From: Comamonadaceae bacterium
Lineage (GTDB): Bacteria > Pseudomonadota > Gammaproteobacteria > Burkholderiales > Burkholderiaceae_C
Assembly: GCA_009996515.1 (NCBI GenBank)
Contig: JAACZV010000004.1
Coordinates: forward strand, 1-64,000
Direction of reading: 5' to 3'
DNA: 64,000 bases
The translations under genes and the position numbers were made by a program. Within the stretch, counting starts at the first letter, position 1. Each line of letters opens with the position of its first letter. This document shows positions 14,715 to 31,905 of the stretch, one piece after another. Under the pieces are notes generated by a model, which was not told the origin of the DNA, made no database searches, and saw nothing but the letters and a program-made list of their open reading frames with translations.

Positions 14715-16919
14715 ATGCCAGACAGCCACTACCGCATCTGCCCGCTGTGCGAGGCCTGCTGCGGGCTCGAGGTGAAGACCGAGGGCGCCAGGGTCATCGC
14801 CATCCGCGGCGCCGAGAACGACGTCTTCAGCCACGGCTACCTGTGCCCCAAGGGCGTGAGCCTGAAGGACTTGCACGAAGACCCCGACCGGCTGCGCACG
14901 CCGCTGATCAAGCGCGACGGCGTCTTCGTCGAGGCGAGCTGGGACGAGGCCTTCGCCGAGATCGAGCGCCGCCTGCTGCCGCTGCGCCGCGAGCACGGCG
15001 CGGACGCCGTGGCGCTGACCATAGGCAACCCGGCCGCGCACAAGGTCAGCCTGCTGGCCTACACGCCCCGCCTCGTGAAGGCGCTGGCCACGCGCAACGT
15101 GATGAGCGCCTCCACGCTGGACCAGATGCCCAAGCAGCTCAGCGCTGGTCTGATGTTCGGCCACTGGCTCTCCATCCCGCTGCCCGACATCGAACGCTGC
15201 GACTACCTGCTCATCCTCGGCGCCAACCCCATGGTGTCCAACGGCAGCCTGTGGACCCTGCCCGACTACCGCGGCAAGGCCCGCGCGCTGCGTGCGCGCG
15301 GCGGCCGCATCGTCGTCGTGGACCCGCGCCGCAGCGAGACGGCCGCGGCGGCCGACGAGCACCTGGCCATACGCCCCGGCGGCGACGCGCTGCTGCTGGC
15401 CGGCATCGCGCACACGCTGTTCGACGAAGGCCTGGTGAAGCTGGGCCGGCTGGCCGAGCACGTCAACGGGCTGGACGAGGCCCGCGCCGCCCTCGCGCGC
15501 TTCGCGCCCGAGGCCACGGCCGCCGGCTGCGGCATCCCGGCCGACACGCAGCGGCGCCTGGCCCGCGAGCTGGCCGCCGCGCCGCGCGCCGCCGTCTACG
15601 GCCGCATCGGCACCTGCACGACGCGCTTCGGCACCGTGAACTCCTGGCTGGTGGATCTCATCAACGTGCTGACCGGCAACCTCGACCGCGAAGGCGGCGC
15701 GATGTTCGCCAAGGCCGCCGCGTTCGCGGCCAACACGCAGGGGCAGCCGGGCCGCGGCAAGGGCGTGACGACGGGCCGGCGCAAGAGCCGCGTGTCCGGC
15801 GCGCCGGAGGTGTTCGGCGAGCTGCCCATCACCGTGATGGCCGAGGAGATGGAGACCCCCGGCACGGGCCAGGTCCGGGCCCTCATCACCATCGCCAGCA
15901 ACCCCGTGCTGTCGGCCCCGGGCGGCCCGCGCATCGCGAAGGCGCTGCAAGGCCTGGACTTCATGCTGAGCCTGGACATCTACGTCAACGAGACCACGCG
16001 CCACGCGGACATCATCCTGCCGGGGCTGTCGCCGCTGGAAGACCTGCATTTCGACGTCGCCTTCCCGCAGCTCAGCCACCGCAACCACGCCAGGGTCTCG
16101 GGCCCGGTGTTCGACGCCACGCCCGGCACGCCGCAGGAGTGGCAGACCCTCCTGCGCCTGTGCGCGCTGCTGGAAGGCCGCGGCCTCGCCGTGGACGTGC
16201 AGCAGCTGGACGACGAGGCCATCGAGGCCGACGTGCGCCGCTTCGCCGGCGAGCAGACCGCCGCCGTGCTGGCCGCGCTGCAGCCCTGGCGCGGGCCGGA
16301 GCGGCTCATCGACCTGCAGCTGCGCATGGGCCCTTACGGTGATCAGTTCGGCCGCCAGCCTGAGGGCCTCAACCTCGCCAAGGTCAAGGCCGCCAGCACG
16401 CTGGAGCGCGGCGGCGTGGACCTGGGTGCGCTCACCCCGCGCATCCCCGAGCTGCTGCGCACGCCCAGCGGCAGGATAGAGCTGGCGCCGCCGGCCATCC
16501 TGGCCGACCTGGCGCGGGTCCAGGCCCAACCGGCGCCCGCGTTCAGCCTCATCGGCCGGCGCGACACCCGCTCGGGCAACAGCTGGATGCACAACCTGCC
16601 CGTGCTGGCCAAGGGGCCGGAGCGCTGCACGCTGCTGGTGCACCCGGCGGATGCCGAGCGGCTGGGCCTGGCCGAGTTCGCCAGGGTGAGCAGCGCCGCG
16701 GGCGAACTGGTCGCCCGCGTGGAGCGCAGCGCCGACATGAGCCCCGGCGTGGTCAGCCTGCCGCATGGCTGGGGGCACGACCTGGACGGCGTGCGACTGG
16801 GCCTGGCCCGCGAGCGTCCGGGCGTGAACATGAACGCGCTGCTGGACGACGCGGCGCGCGACCCGCTGTCCGGCAACGCGGTGCTGTCGGGCGTCGCGGT
16901 GGTCATCGAGCCGGCCTGA
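14715..16919 (+). CDS. Molybdopterin-dependent oxidoreductase with [4Fe-4S] cluster
   Basis: A 734-residue cytoplasmic oxidoreductase of the DMSO-reductase family. The N-terminal cluster motif CPLCEACCGLEV followed by CPKG provides the four iron-sulfur ligands. Molybdopterin-binding segments include LILGANPMVSNGS, IVVVDPRRSET and the C-terminal NSWMHNLP and PHGWGHD regions. There is no Tat signal. At the position where formate dehydrogenases have Cys/Sec the sequence reads STLDQMPKQL, so the metal ligand is not an obvious Cys. No small or membrane subunit is adjacent, so the electron partner must be encoded elsewhere or be diffusible. The strong Shine-Dalgarno AAGGAGA supports ATG 14715. Substrate not predictable; many such proteins are annotated loosely as formate dehydrogenases. 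Confidence 0.88.
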   Translation: MPDSHYRICPLCEACCGLEVKTEGARVIAIRGAENDVFSHGYLCPKGVSLKDLHEDPDRLRTPLIKRDGVFVEASWDEAFAEIERRLLPLRREHGADAVALTIGNPAAHKVSLLAYTPRLVKALATRNVMSASTLDQMPKQLSAGLMFGHWLSIPLPDIERCDYLLILGANPMVSNGSLWTLPDYRGKARALRARGGRIVVVDPRRSETAAAADEHLAIRPGGDALLLAGIAHTLFDEGLVKLGRLAEHVNGLDEARAALARFAPEATAAGCGIPADTQRRLARELAAAPRAAVYGRIGTCTTRFGTVNSWLVDLINVLTGNLDREGGAMFAKAAAFAANTQGQPGRGKGVTTGRRKSRVSGAPEVFGELPITVMAEEMETPGTGQVRALITIASNPVLSAPGGPRIAKALQGLDFMLSLDIYVNETTRHADIILPGLSPLEDLHFDVAFPQLSHRNHARVSGPVFDATPGTPQEWQTLLRLCALLEGRGLAVDVQQLDDEAIEADVRRFAGEQTAAVLAALQPWRGPERLIDLQLRMGPYGDQFGRQPEGLNLAKVKAASTLERGGVDLGALTPRIPELLRTPSGRIELAPPAILADLARVQAQPAPAFSLIGRRDTRSGNSWMHNLPVLAKGPERCTLLVHPADAERLGLAEFARVSSAAGELVARVERSADMSPGVVSLPHGWGHDLDGVRLGLARERPGVNMNALLDDAARDPLSGNAVLSGVAVVIEPA

Positions 16920-17065
16920 GCGGGGGTGCGGGCGGCGAGGCCATGAAGCCGTCCGCCGCCCTTCGCTGTCGCGGGGCTGTCAGCCTGCGGGGCCTGGCGG
17001 CACGGCGCGGCAGAAGTCACGGGCGCCCCAGCCCCGGCCGCCTAGACTGGCTGCGCTTCACCAAC

Positions 17066-17162
17066 CCTGAGGGCAAACCCGTCGAAAGGCGGGGACGCAA
17101 AGCCACCGGCCTAAAGCGCGCAGGCGCCACGGCAGCGGGGCCGCCGGGACCGACAGGTCCCG
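17066..17162 (+). ncRNA. Cyclic di-GMP-I (GEMM) riboswitch
   Basis: The conserved core is present in order: AGGGCAAACC, a GNRA-like GTCGAAAG tetraloop region, GGGGACGCAAAGCC, ACCGGCCTAA, and then the second stem with AGCGGGG as in the Vibrio Vc2 aptamer. It lies 30-130 bases upstream of the S53 peptidase start, on the same strand. A perfect 6-bp hairpin (GGGACC GACA GGTCCC, 17146-17161) closes the element and may form part of the expression platform. Boundaries are approximate. Confidence 0.9.
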
Positions 17163-17194: not shown

Positions 17195-19006
17195 ATGCGC
17201 AGTAACCGCCCTCTCTCCCCTCCGTCCCAAACGCTCACCCAGGCCATTGGCCTGCTGGCCGCCGCGGCGCTGACCGGCTGTGGCGGCGGCGGCGGCCCGG
17301 CCGAACCGCCCAGCGCGGTGGTCGCGTTGAGCGTGAACCTCGCTGGCGGCGCCGGCCCCGCCGGCGTCATCGCCCAGCCCAGCTTCCACACCGCGGCCGT
17401 CGACCTCGATGCGCCCGACGACGGCCCCGCCCCGCACCGCGCGCTGGCACTGTCCGGTGTGCCCACCAGAGGCCTGACCCGCGAGCGGCTGGACGAGGCC
17501 GCGGGACGCTCGCGGGCGCTGGCAGCCGGCAGCGGCGACGCCGCCCCCATGGCCACGTCGACCGCCGTGACCACCTACACGCCGGCCCAGATCCGCGCGG
17601 CCTACGGCTGGCCCGCCCTGCCCGCCGGCACCACCGGCCTGACGGCCGCGCAGGCCGCCCAGCTCGGCGCCGGCCAGACGATTTACATCGTCAACGCCAA
17701 GCACGACCCCAACATCGTCACCGAGCTGGCCACCTTCAACGCCAAGTTCGGCCTGCCCGGCTGCGGCTCGCGCACGCTGGCCGCCAACGCCGGCCTGCCG
17801 CTGGCGGCGGCGTCGACATCGGGCTGTGAACTGGTCGTCGCCTACAGCACGGCCGCCGGCGCCCTGACCGCCACGCCGCCCGCCTACGACAGCGGCTGGG
17901 CCACCGAGATCGCGCTGGACGTGCAATGGGCTCATGCCACCGCGCCGCTGGCCCGCCTGGTCCTCATCGAGGCGCCGGACGCCGGCGTGACCAGCCTGTC
18001 CAACGCCGTCGCGCTGGCCAACAAGATGGGCCCGGGCGTGGTCTCCATGAGCTTCGGCGCCAGCGAGGGCAGCTGGACGACGGGCTACGACGGCGTTTTC
18101 TCCGCCGCCGGCATGAGCTATCTCGCCGCCACCGGCGACAACGGCTCGGCCGTGTCCTGGCCCTCGGTGTCGAGCAAGGTGGTGGGCGTGGGTGGCACCA
18201 CGCTGACCTACGGCGGCAGCGGCGCGCGCAGCGAGACGGTCTGGAGCGGCACCGGTGGCGGCACCAGCGCCTATGTGGCGCTACCCAGCTATCAGAGCGG
18301 CACGATCGGCGGCTACGCCAGGCGCGCCGTCGCCGACGTGGCCTTCAACGCCGATCCCAACAGCGGCCAGTACGTCGCCACCCTCGCGCCGGGCGCCACG
18401 ACGGTGCGCTGGGTCAGTGCCGGCGGCACCAGCCTGGCCACGCCGCAGTGGGCCGGCCTGCTGGCCGTGGCCAATGCGATGCGCGCGGCGGCCGCCAAGC
18501 CCCTGCTGGGCCAGCCGCACGCGGCGCTCTACCTGCAGATCGGCGCCGTGCCCACGCAGTACGCCGCCGCCTTCAAGGACGTGGCCAGCGGCAGCAACGG
18601 CAGCTGCAGCGGCTGCAGCGCCAGGAGCGGCTACGACACGCCCACCGGCTGGGGCACGCCCAACGTGAGCGCGCTGCTGACCAGCCTGACCGGCGCCAGC
18701 GTGACGAGCAGCGGCACGTCAACCACCGCCGCCAGCAGCGGCCCGCAGCTGAGCACCGCGAGCCTGACCGGCACCGCCGGCAAGCCCTTCAACGGCACCA
18801 TAGGCTATAGCGCGCCGGGCGCCAGCTCGCTGTCCATCACCATCAGCGGCGCGCCCGGCGGCATGAGCTTCTCGGCCACCAGCGCCGGCCTCAGCGTCGG
18901 CTGGCCCAGCCCGGTGGTGGGCAGCACCCACCTCGTCATCACGCTGAGAGACAACCTCGGACAGACCTCGACGGGCACCGTGAAGGTGACGATCAACGCG
19001 GGCTGA
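17195..19006 (+). CDS. Sedolisin (S53) family serine-carboxyl peptidase, lipoprotein
   Basis: A 603-residue secreted peptidase. The N-terminus has a lipoprotein signal with lipobox LTGC followed by a glycine run. A prodomain-like stretch leads to the catalytic domain: Glu and Asp in TEIALDVQWAHA (ExxxD), the oxyanion Asp in LAATGDNGS, and the nucleophile Ser in SAGGTSLATPQWAG. The calcium site near the end is present (FKDVASGSNG and DTPTGWGTPN). A C-terminal domain of about 110 residues rich in Ser/Thr resembles a cadherin/Ig-like module. S53 enzymes usually digest proteins at acidic pH; here the protein should be surface anchored and controlled by c-di-GMP through the upstream riboswitch. 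ATG 17195 places the lipobox correctly. Confidence 0.9.
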   Translation: MRSNRPLSPPSQTLTQAIGLLAAAALTGCGGGGGPAEPPSAVVALSVNLAGGAGPAGVIAQPSFHTAAVDLDAPDDGPAPHRALALSGVPTRGLTRERLDEAAGRSRALAAGSGDAAPMATSTAVTTYTPAQIRAAYGWPALPAGTTGLTAAQAAQLGAGQTIYIVNAKHDPNIVTELATFNAKFGLPGCGSRTLAANAGLPLAAASTSGCELVVAYSTAAGALTATPPAYDSGWATEIALDVQWAHATAPLARLVLIEAPDAGVTSLSNAVALANKMGPGVVSMSFGASEGSWTTGYDGVFSAAGMSYLAATGDNGSAVSWPSVSSKVVGVGGTTLTYGGSGARSETVWSGTGGGTSAYVALPSYQSGTIGGYARRAVADVAFNADPNSGQYVATLAPGATTVRWVSAGGTSLATPQWAGLLAVANAMRAAAAKPLLGQPHAALYLQIGAVPTQYAAAFKDVASGSNGSCSGCSARSGYDTPTGWGTPNVSALLTSLTGASVTSSGTSTTAASSGPQLSTASLTGTAGKPFNGTIGYSAPGASSLSITISGAPGGMSFSATSAGLSVGWPSPVVGSTHLVITLRDNLGQTSTGTVKVTINAG

Positions 19007-30174: not shown

Positions 30175-30795
30175 ATGAACCCGCCCCCGCCGCCCGCCCT
30201 CCCCGGCCTGCGCGTGCTGCTGGCCGACGCCGGCCAGCGCCGCAGCCCCGTCATCCGCCTGGAACTGATCCGGCTGCGCTGTCAGCTCGTGGACGTCATC
30301 GACCTCGTCGCCCAGCCGGACGCGCTGCCTGCCGCGCTGGAACGCCTGGCGCCGGCACTGCTATTGCTGGACTGCGAGCAGCCCACGGCCGCGCTGCTGG
30401 CCCAGCTGGGCGAGGCCCTGCAACGCCAGCCCCGCCCCGTGCTGCTGGCCGCCGAGCAGATGACGCCGGCGCAGATGCGCGCCGCCGTGGCGGCCGGGGT
30501 CAGCACGCTGCAGCTCGCCGGCCTGCCCCCGCAGCGCCTGGGCCTGCTGCTACAGCTCACCCTGGCCCGCTTCGAACACGACCAGGGCCTGCAGCGCGAC
30601 CTGCGCCAGGCCCAGACCCAGCTCGCCGAGCGCAAGCTCGTCGAGCGCGCACGCGGCATCCTGATGCGGGAGCGGGGTCTGGACGAGGAGGCCGCCTTCC
30701 AGCGCCTGCGCCAGACCGCCATGGACAGCGGCCAGACCCTGGCCGCCGTCGCGGCGCGGCTCATCGAGGCCGACCAGTTGCTGCGTCCGCGCTGA
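30175..30795 (+). CDS. ANTAR-domain antiterminator, NasT-like
   Basis: A 206-residue two-domain protein. The N-terminal half is a receiver-like domain with an Asp in ALLLLDCEQP but no conserved Lys, as in NasT proteins. The C-terminal ANTAR domain (about 150-200, VERARGILMRERGLDEEAAF) binds RNA hairpins and prevents transcription termination. NasT normally works with the nitrate sensor NasS and acts on the leader of nitrate assimilation operons. Here no nasS, nitrate transporter or nitrate reductase gene is present nearby; the gene is instead followed by a sigma-54-type promoter, a leader with two matching hexaloops, and coaX. GCGGGAGC-type domains and length are normal, so the protein looks functional. 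Confidence 0.85.
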   Translation: MNPPPPPALPGLRVLLADAGQRRSPVIRLELIRLRCQLVDVIDLVAQPDALPAALERLAPALLLLDCEQPTAALLAQLGEALQRQPRPVLLAAEQMTPAQMRAAVAAGVSTLQLAGLPPQRLGLLLQLTLARFEHDQGLQRDLRQAQTQLAERKLVERARGILMRERGLDEEAAFQRLRQTAMDSGQTLAAVAARLIEADQLLRPR

Positions 30796-30904
30796 GGGCC
30801 GGCCGCACCAACAAGTGCGCACCGTCACGGCGCACACCGGCCTGCCCGCCCCCCGGCATGCGCCAACTGGGTGCACCACCGGCCTCGGCGGCCCGCGCGG
30901 GTGC

Positions 30905-30921
30905 TGGCACGCAAACTGCGT
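30905..30921 (+). promoter_or_regulatory. Sigma-54 promoter element upstream of ANTAR leader
   Basis: TGGCACGCAAACTGCGT matches the -24/-12 consensus TGGCACG-N4-TTGCW except for one base, with the essential GG (30906-30907) and GC (30918-30919) exactly 10 bases apart. Transcription would begin near 30931, the first base of the leader hairpin. An imperfect inverted repeat GTGCGC/GCGCAC at 30815-30835 upstream could serve an NtrC-type activator. Confidence 0.75.
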
Positions 30922-30930
30922 AGCAGAAGC

Positions 30931-31006
30931 GAGGCCGGCAACGGCGCCGGCCTCTGGTGCCGGCAGACCTCCTCTGCTGCCGGCACCTCGGGACAACGGC
31001 GTCCGA
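30931..31006 (+). ncRNA. ANTAR-target leader RNA with two AACGGC hexaloops
   Basis: The first hairpin is a perfect 9-bp stem GAGGCCGGC/GCCGGCCTC (30931-30954) closed by hexaloop AACGGC. The second is TCGG-AC/GT-CCGA (30988-31006) closed by the same hexaloop AACGGC. ANTAR proteins recognise paired stem-loops whose hexaloops carry A at position 1 and G at position 4, which both loops satisfy. Between them a perfect 11-bp hairpin (30956-30987) spaces the two binding stems. The upstream neighbour encodes the ANTAR protein itself. Confidence 0.8.
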
Positions 31007-31082
31007 CCTCAGCGACCTCTCGTTGGCAGCGCTCCCCCAAGCTCTCGGCGGGCCGTCGGCGCAGGATCGAGGCAGAAACCCG

Positions 31083-31105
31083 CAGCGCCAGGCTCCCTGG
31101 CGCTG
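31083..31105 (+). terminator. Strong hairpin between ANTAR leader and coaX
   Basis: CAGCGCCAGG CTC CCTGGCGCTG is a perfect 10-bp stem 36 bases before coaX. It is the best candidate for the leader terminator that ANTAR binding would bypass, although a T-run is absent (GTAGGCTCTC follows). In such a GC-rich genome terminators often lack long T-runs. Confidence 0.45.
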
Positions 31106-31140
31106 GTAGGCTCTCGGCATCGTTCACGCCACAGCCCCTC

Positions 31141-31905
31141 ATGAGCTTTCTGGCCATCGACATCGGCAATACCCGGCTCAAGTGGGCCGTCTACGCGGAC
31201 GGCGCCCGCCCCGGCGCCCAGCCGCAGCAGCATGGCGCCGTCTTTCTGGAGAACATCGACCGCCTGTCCGACGAGGACTGGCAAGGCCTGGCCGCGCCGA
31301 CGCGCATCCTGGGCAGCAACGTCGCCGGCGACGCGGTGCGCCGCCGCGTCGAGGAGCAGATGGAGCACTGGGAGCTCAGCGCGCGCTGGGTGGTGCCCGC
31401 CGCCGAATGCGCGGGCGTGAGGAACGGCTACGACCACCCCACCCGCCTGGGCGCCGACCGCTGGGTGGCCGTCATCGGCGCCCATGCCCACGCGCGGATG
31501 CGCGGCTTCGACGGGCCGGTGCTGACCGTCATGGTGGGCACGGCGGTGACCGTGGACGCCCTCTCCAGCGACGGCCAGTTCCTCGGCGGCCTGATCCTGC
31601 CCGGCCACGGCATCATGCTGCGCGCGCTGGAAGGCGGCACCGCCGGCCTGCGCGTGCCCACCGGCGAGGTGCGCGACTTCCCCACCAACACCAGCGACGC
31701 GCTGACCACCGGCGGCACCTTCGCCATCACCGGCGCCATCGAACGCATGCACCGGCTGCTGGCCAGGCGCGAGGGCCGCGAGCCGCTGCTGCTGATGACG
31801 GGCGGCGCCGGCTGGAAGGTGGCGCCGGCGCTGGACGCGCCGCACGAGTTGATCGAGGGCCTGATCTTCGACGGCCTGCTGGCCATAGACGCGGCGCGGG
31901 CCTGA
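31141..31905 (+). CDS. coaX: Type III pantothenate kinase
   Basis: A 254-residue cytoplasmic kinase that phosphorylates pantothenate, the first step of coenzyme A synthesis. It has the ASKHA-fold phosphate loop [16 protein letters not shown], the [12 protein letters not shown] motif, the phosphate 2 segment [19 protein letters not shown] and the adenosine segment TGGAGWK. Length and motifs are those of CoaX (type III). ATG 31141 begins [11 protein letters not shown]. The gene lies at the end of the 210-base ANTAR leader and may be expressed from the sigma-54 promoter, from a weaker promoter of its own, or both. In other Burkholderiales coaX usually follows birA; that neighbour is absent here. 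Confidence 0.95.

Follow-up and report, generated by a model that had tools for sequence, protein, structure and literature searches.

A promoter and ANTAR leader of a nitrate control unit, probably stranded by a deletion, in front of coaX of a Comamonadaceae bacterium

The pantothenate kinase gene coaX of a Comamonadaceae bacterium is preceded by a control unit that in most related genomes stands before a nitrate gene. The unit lies in the stretch of 64,000 nucleotides analysed here (the window), and the order of its parts, all on the forward strand, is a nasT-like gene, a sigma-54-type promoter, a two-hexaloop ANTAR leader, and coaX. Comparison with related genomes shows, at the level of DNA homology, a leader fused to coaX by a deletion: the homology is split in two parts, the promoter, the leader, and nasT are intact, and the nitrate genes are missing. 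The unit is probably an inherited NtrC/sigma-54 promoter from which transcription can extend into coaX, with no functioning nitrate/NasT switch, and so a relic stranded by the deletion. The window belongs to contig C4 (218 kb) of a 4.58-Mb draft genome (G000), which is divided into 48 contigs and is 99.85% complete. The genome was compared with 19 same-genus relatives (Roseateles/Pelomonas), which together with it form a genus set of 20 genomes. The closest nasT genes among named genomes are those of Roseateles and Pelomonas (12 loci, three of which are from MAGs under other names).

The nasT-like gene (30175-30795, +) is intact and encodes a protein of 206 residues with a C-terminal ANTAR domain (residues 144-197; PF03861, 66.7 bits, cut-off 27.3). 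The ANTAR domain is the sole Pfam match at E ≤ 0.01. A receiver-type N-terminal domain was not found by Pfam and no NCBIfam model matched the protein; its N-terminus is conserved in the genus. Matches to nasT that are 57-87% identical by blast occur in 17 of the 19 relatives (all except G005 and G014). The relatives' copies are located beside the leader and NasS in 16/16 nitrate-linked relatives, which identifies the gene as an orthologue of nasS-linked nasT; several kilobases separate nasT from the leader in some of these genomes. A second ANTAR-domain protein of G000, a receiver-ANTAR protein (C1:287245-287373, 28.1 bits), is encoded near genes that we take to be flagellar. The gene behind the leader is coaX (31141-31905, +), which encodes a type III pantothenate kinase of 254 residues (PF03309, 158 bits; TIGR00671 above cut-off).

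The sigma-54-type promoter TGGCACGCAAACTGC has its GG and GC 10 bases apart at 30905-30919 (+), so that the predicted transcription start falls at 30931. The pattern is not significant by itself, since it has one match in the window and at least one match in 24 of 100 shuffles. Its weight therefore comes from its position and conservation: the same element is located 11-13 bases before hairpin 1 in all 16 nitrate-linked relatives and in G017. Three NtrC-like sites precede the promoter. NtrC sites have the consensus GCAC-N6-GTGC, to which GCACCAACAAGTGC (30805-30818, +) corresponds exactly. The sites GCACCGTCACGGCGC (30819-30833, +) and GCGCCAACTGGGTGC (30860-30874, +) have one mismatch each; the former has a counterpart at -111 to -113 in 10/16 nitrate-linked relatives, and the latter is at the same place (-71/-72) in 15/16. 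When up to one mismatch is allowed, 300 random 250-bp stretches of the window contain on average 0.7 NtrC-like sites per 250 bp, and 15% of them contain at least two. Single sites are weak against this background, and the argument is therefore their position. Together with rpoN and ntrC, which are present over the cut-off in G000, the GG-N10-GC element and the upstream enhancer sites make up a predicted sigma-54/NtrC promoter.

The leader begins at the predicted transcription start. Hairpin P1 (30931-30954, +) has nine base pairs and the composition GAGGCCGGC-AACGGC-GCCGGCCTC. Hairpin P2 consists of four pairs at 30991-31004 (GGAC-AACGGC-GTCC, core GGACAACGGCGTCC) and is extended by two more pairs across a bulged G to 30988-31006 (+). 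Both hexaloops are AACGGC, with A at position 1 and G at position 4, as in dual-hairpin ANTAR targets, and the P2 motif GGACAACG[GA]CGTCC is present in 18/18 aligned leaders. A covariance model (R1) built from the leaders of the 16 same-genus relatives, with the window excluded, finds 30931-31004 with 80 bits and an E value of 2.2e-11 over G000. A further match at E ≤ 1 was not found among the best 150 of 14766 first-look candidates scored in this genome. Across the 20 genomes of the genus, with the best 150 candidates scored per genome and a rough calibration, 18 have a single strong R1 match each: 55-105 bits in 16 relatives, 80 bits in G000, and 45 bits (E 5.4e-5) in G017. Two further weak matches occur in G012. 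Among the best 150 candidates, G005 has no match and G014 has matches at E 0.07 and above only.

In the alignment of 14 distinct leaders, the window included, 93.9% of the cells pair, and 7 of the 21 pairs change on both sides (0/500 shuffles, which ignore relatedness). Versions of the structure that were slid along the alignment reach at most 44% paired cells and three pairs changed on both sides. Two double changes that keep stem pairs are found only in the window (columns 7/18 and 35/49). Between P1 and P2 lies a spacer hairpin (30955-30987, +; alignment columns 29-55), which folds with 11 bp in the window. Four of its eight aligned pairs are changed on both sides, and the hairpin is, as judged from this alignment, conserved by structure. 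The single-sequence fold of 30931-31140 has a z-score of -2.84. P2 is absent from the minimum-energy structure, and comparison and ensemble pairing were therefore used instead.

An earlier note, made from the sequence alone, had described this promoter and two-hexaloop leader behind an ANTAR gene and before coaX, and its description agrees with the present analysis base by base. This applies to the ANTAR protein encoded just upstream, the GG and GC spaced by 10 bases with a start at 30931, the 9-bp hairpin at 30931 and the second hairpin at 30988-31006 with identical AACGGC loops that follow the A1/G4 rule, and pantothenate kinase coaX as the next gene. It had proposed a covariance-model search with the ANTAR-target model; the model from the relatives recovers the leader, as given above.

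The leader stands before a NasS/NrtA-type gene in 16 of the 19 relatives. NasS follows it in all 16 relatives that have both, and the NasS match begins about 105-145 bases after the leader. A search with window positions 30900-31300 gives a two-part match across the relatives. The left part, which extends to 31008-31010, matches the nasT leader in 16/19 relatives (34 bases only in G010). The right part matches the coaX region in 19/19 and starts at 31047 in G014, at 31059 in G015, and at 31065 or later in the others. The deletion junction zone between the two parts (31011-31064) matches neither flank in most relatives. A single contig carries both nasT and coaX in eleven relatives. In eight of these, coaX follows nasT on the same strand, at distances of 7.4, 16.3, 16.5, 20.3, 24.9, 28.1, 30.4, and 94.6 kb; in the other three it is on the other side of nasT and on the opposite strand. 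NasS and NasA or another molybdopterin enzyme are positioned between nasT and coaX in 7/8 collinear relatives (not in G017). In G008, coaX is immediately preceded by a chemotaxis-receptor gene (Pfam MCPsignal) in divergent orientation, and a start codon is visible at its place in most other relatives. Given the collinear order in the relatives and the two-part homology, a single deletion that starts behind P2 and ends before the upstream element of coaX gives the order of the window.

G017 is a second lineage in which the control unit is separated from the nitrate genes. It keeps nasT and the two-hexaloop leader (L048:14537-14604), and its nasS is on another contig. The next open reading frame behind the G017 leader is on the opposite strand, and there is no same-strand gene close behind.

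The genes expected behind the leader, of the nitrate types tested, are missing from the whole genome. NasS, the partner in the NasS-NasT system, has 0 matches in G000. The best NirB match (E 1.1e-15) is under the cut-off, and 11/12 same-genus relatives are over it. No ntrCD-type ATPase is over the cut-off among the best 82 of 103 candidates scored in G000 (best 186 vs 291.8 bits), and all 12 relatives searched have one over it. The best NasA match in G000 is 29% identical, and 17/19 relatives have matches of at least 61%; the NasA type is also absent from G008. When a 15-kb stretch of the G006 island was compared with G000, only coaX and the chemotaxis-receptor region were present among the 20 of 56 matches listed. 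The window contains a 734-residue molybdopterin-oxidoreductase-like open reading frame (14715-16919, +) that shares 29% identity with NasA across residues 15-501 and is distinct from the relatives' assimilatory nitrate reductase. Also in the window, a c-di-GMP-I riboswitch aptamer (17062-17148, +; RF01051, 73.1 bits) precedes a long open reading frame ending at 19006, which presumably encodes a secreted serine-type peptidase.

The coaX tree joins G000 with G014 (support 99/96). Neither NasS nor NasA was found in this separately assembled sister. Its homology to the window ends at 30274, roughly 100 bp inside nasT, and begins again at 31047; the two parts are separated in G014 by some 0.85 kb of different DNA. 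G014 thus keeps coaX, has lost the leader, and has nasT reduced to a remnant of about 100 bp. On the coaX side, the homology of G014 to the G006 island reaches 54 bases beyond that of G000. Because the right ends differ, the losses in the two genomes may go back to a single event, trimmed afterwards, or to two separate ones. The dS between G000 and G014 is 0.16-0.41 in three neighbouring genes.

Outside the genus, seven regions downstream of nasT were inspected by eye, and in six of them (not in G026) P2 overlaps a classic terminator that has a T run. Within the genus the arm is weaker, of the CGTT type, and located about 60 bases after P2; one of its pairs is changed on both sides in G016 (AACGAC with GACGTCGTT). 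The attenuator arm of the relatives is not recognisable in the window in the alignment, and no intrinsic terminator is predicted in 30780-31160. A strong hairpin at 31077-31101 has no T run and was rejected as a new terminator. In ensemble folding, the probability of downstream pairing for loop 2 of the window is 0.36 with 90 additional bases, lower than in 14/15 relatives, and 0.34 with 130 additional bases, lower than in 12/15 and above G003, G006, and G008. The longest complement to the P2 region has 7 nt in the window and likewise in 7/16 nitrate-linked relatives, and a longer complement was therefore rejected as a distinguishing mark of the relatives. A diverged attenuator arm may lie within the 54 bases of 31011-31064. 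The conserved upstream element of coaX (31065-31140, +), delimited by comparison with the coaX regions of the relatives, keeps CAGAAACC and the TAGGCTC-CGGCATCG block and lacks ATTGAAG, which is exact in most relatives. The conserved block probably holds coaX's own promoter; a simple sigma-70 scan found no promoter.

The arrangement resembles the NasS-NasT system of nitrate/nitrite antitermination in Paracoccus denitrificans, in which, according to PMC3795266, a NasT-like ANTAR protein adjoins a leader with regulatory hairpins. The resemblance extends to the same-genus relatives, where the leader precedes the NasS/NrtA-type gene. Unlike in that system, the window genome is without NasS and the tested nitrate genes, coaX follows the leader, and the attenuator arm is unrecognisable. 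The same paper describes constitutive expression after the loss of nasS, and this state would be the expectation for the window genome if its leader still worked. The two hairpins with hexanucleotide loops that have A at position 1 and G at position 4 also follow the rule for dual-hairpin ANTAR targets of the EutV system, as given in PMC3369931. Known targets of this kind usually have, by the same paper, an intrinsic terminator that lies beside P2 and competes with it, whereas none is predicted in the window. Further differences from the EutV-type target are the nine pairs of P1 and the conserved spacer hairpin between P1 and P2.

The Rfam search gave no gathering-level match at the leader. 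A weak match to narK RNA (RF03032) at 30906-30973 has 19.2 bits against a gathering threshold of 43.2; the leader is not a member by the Rfam rule, and RF03032 was rejected as its family. The nasT leaders of four out-of-genus relatives (L021, L022, L023, and L026) score 26-33 bits with RF03032, also below gathering. In other taxa, narK RNA may be an ANTAR/sigma-54 leader. The literature search found no study in which coaX is controlled by NasT or another ANTAR protein; its matches, PMC10333789 among them, look unrelated by title and the start of the abstract.

The reading that we consider probable starts from an ancestral order in which nasT would have been followed by the sigma-54/NtrC promoter and leader, the NasS/NrtA-type gene with an ABC transporter, and further nitrate genes; next would have come a chemotaxis-receptor gene that points away from coaX, and finally coaX. 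A deletion, probably of 16-30 kb as judged from the distance in 6/8 collinear relatives, would have removed the DNA from just behind P2 to just before the upstream element of coaX. Under nitrogen limitation, NtrC and sigma-54 RNA polymerase would start transcription at 30931. Since no terminator is predicted before coaX, the transcript could run into coaX and add to the output of coaX's own promoter. Since NasS is absent, NasT should be free at all times, as suggested by the constitutive system of P. denitrificans without nasS (PMC3795266), and its binding to P1 and P2 could persist. As the attenuator arm is either gone or severely damaged in this reading, NasT should not switch coaX. The control unit would be mainly a stranded relic, with extra transcription of coaX when nitrogen is short as a possible side effect.

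Several observations speak against this reading, and some of them would fit a coaX that is truly regulated. The junction rests on one assembly. The 7-nt complement to P2 also occurs in 7/16 relatives, and the pairing of loop 2 is above that of G003, G006, and G008. The two window-only double changes keep the stem pairs of the leader, as if it were still selected. On the G000 branch, nasT has a dN of 0.041-0.061, a dS of 0.173-0.207, and a ratio of 0.21-0.32 by NG86 counts in seven three-taxon sets, a crude method by which paired relatives have similar ratios of 0.19-0.40. An intact gene with such ordinary values would fit either selection or a recent deletion, and a relic would show them only in the latter case. 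If the deletion predates the split of G000 and G014, a neutral nasT is expected to have accumulated more amino-acid changes than are seen on the entire branch; for a recent deletion the ratio says nothing on this point. It is conceivable, though in our estimate unlikely, that the deletion turned the nitrate control unit into a nitrogen-limitation promoter for coaX, that NasT, without its partner, is bound to the leader at all times and influences read-through or the stability of the mRNA, and that selection keeps both nasT and the leader. The NtrC-like sites are retained. The leader is the sole R1 match at E ≤ 1 among the best 150 candidates in G000, so that no other target explains the retention of NasT. 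However, the unit is dispensable in the sister G014, which keeps coaX without the leader and most of nasT. The additional 54 bases of homology in G014 also weigh against this reading: the two losses may be separate, and that of G000 recent. Furthermore, neither an attenuator arm is recognisable nor a terminator predicted, and the nitrate sensor NasS is absent.

We regard it as improbable that NasT and the leader act in trans on a different target, for example a divergent leader, or through a small-RNA role of the leader, with the position before coaX being incidental. The sequences of ANTAR targets are variable enough that R1 could overlook further ones, and G017 keeps nasT and the leader with no same-strand gene close behind and nasS on another contig. 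Nevertheless, R1 gives one match at E ≤ 1 among the best 150 candidates in G000, and no NasS-like or tested nitrate gene remains there to be regulated. An assembly in which the nitrate island was dropped or misjoined, as could happen in a draft of 48 contigs, is very improbable: the genome is nearly complete, the junction is inside a 218-kb contig, the island genes are missing from every contig, and the separate assembly of G014 is likewise without NasS and NasA.

The earlier note had offered two readings. Its first, that the nitrate genes were lost and the control unit remained, is supported by the 16/19 relatives, the split homology, and the missing genes. The absence of nasS, transporter, and reductase that it noticed in the window holds genome-wide for the nitrate types tested (NasS, NirB, the ATPase, and NasA). 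Its second reading, that coaX came under nitrogen/ANTAR control, has partial support only. The NtrC-like sites and the promoter survive and no terminator is predicted, so that transcripts from 30931 could reach coaX; the unrecognisable arm, the loss of NasS, and the retention by coaX of most of its conserved upstream element argue against it. The note had suggested examining what follows nasT in related genomes, and would have abandoned its case if the same leader preceded nitrate genes there and the present arrangement were a single assembly artefact. The relatives do have nitrate genes after the leader, and an artefact is unlikely.

The switch itself is ordinary, and its new wiring before coaX is a natural experiment in how genes gain new control. 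Rewiring by deletion is usually reconstructed long afterwards. Here, the likely before-state, with the leader on NasS, is seen in 16 genomes, the fused state is present in one lineage with everything upstream intact, and the sister shows nasT decayed to a remnant. The locus allows two questions to be tested: what becomes of an RNA-binding antiterminator after the loss of its sensor and targets by deletion, and whether the gene at the landing site recruits a stranded NtrC/sigma-54 promoter. If 30931 does drive coaX, a single step would have placed a housekeeping cofactor gene under the control of nitrogen.
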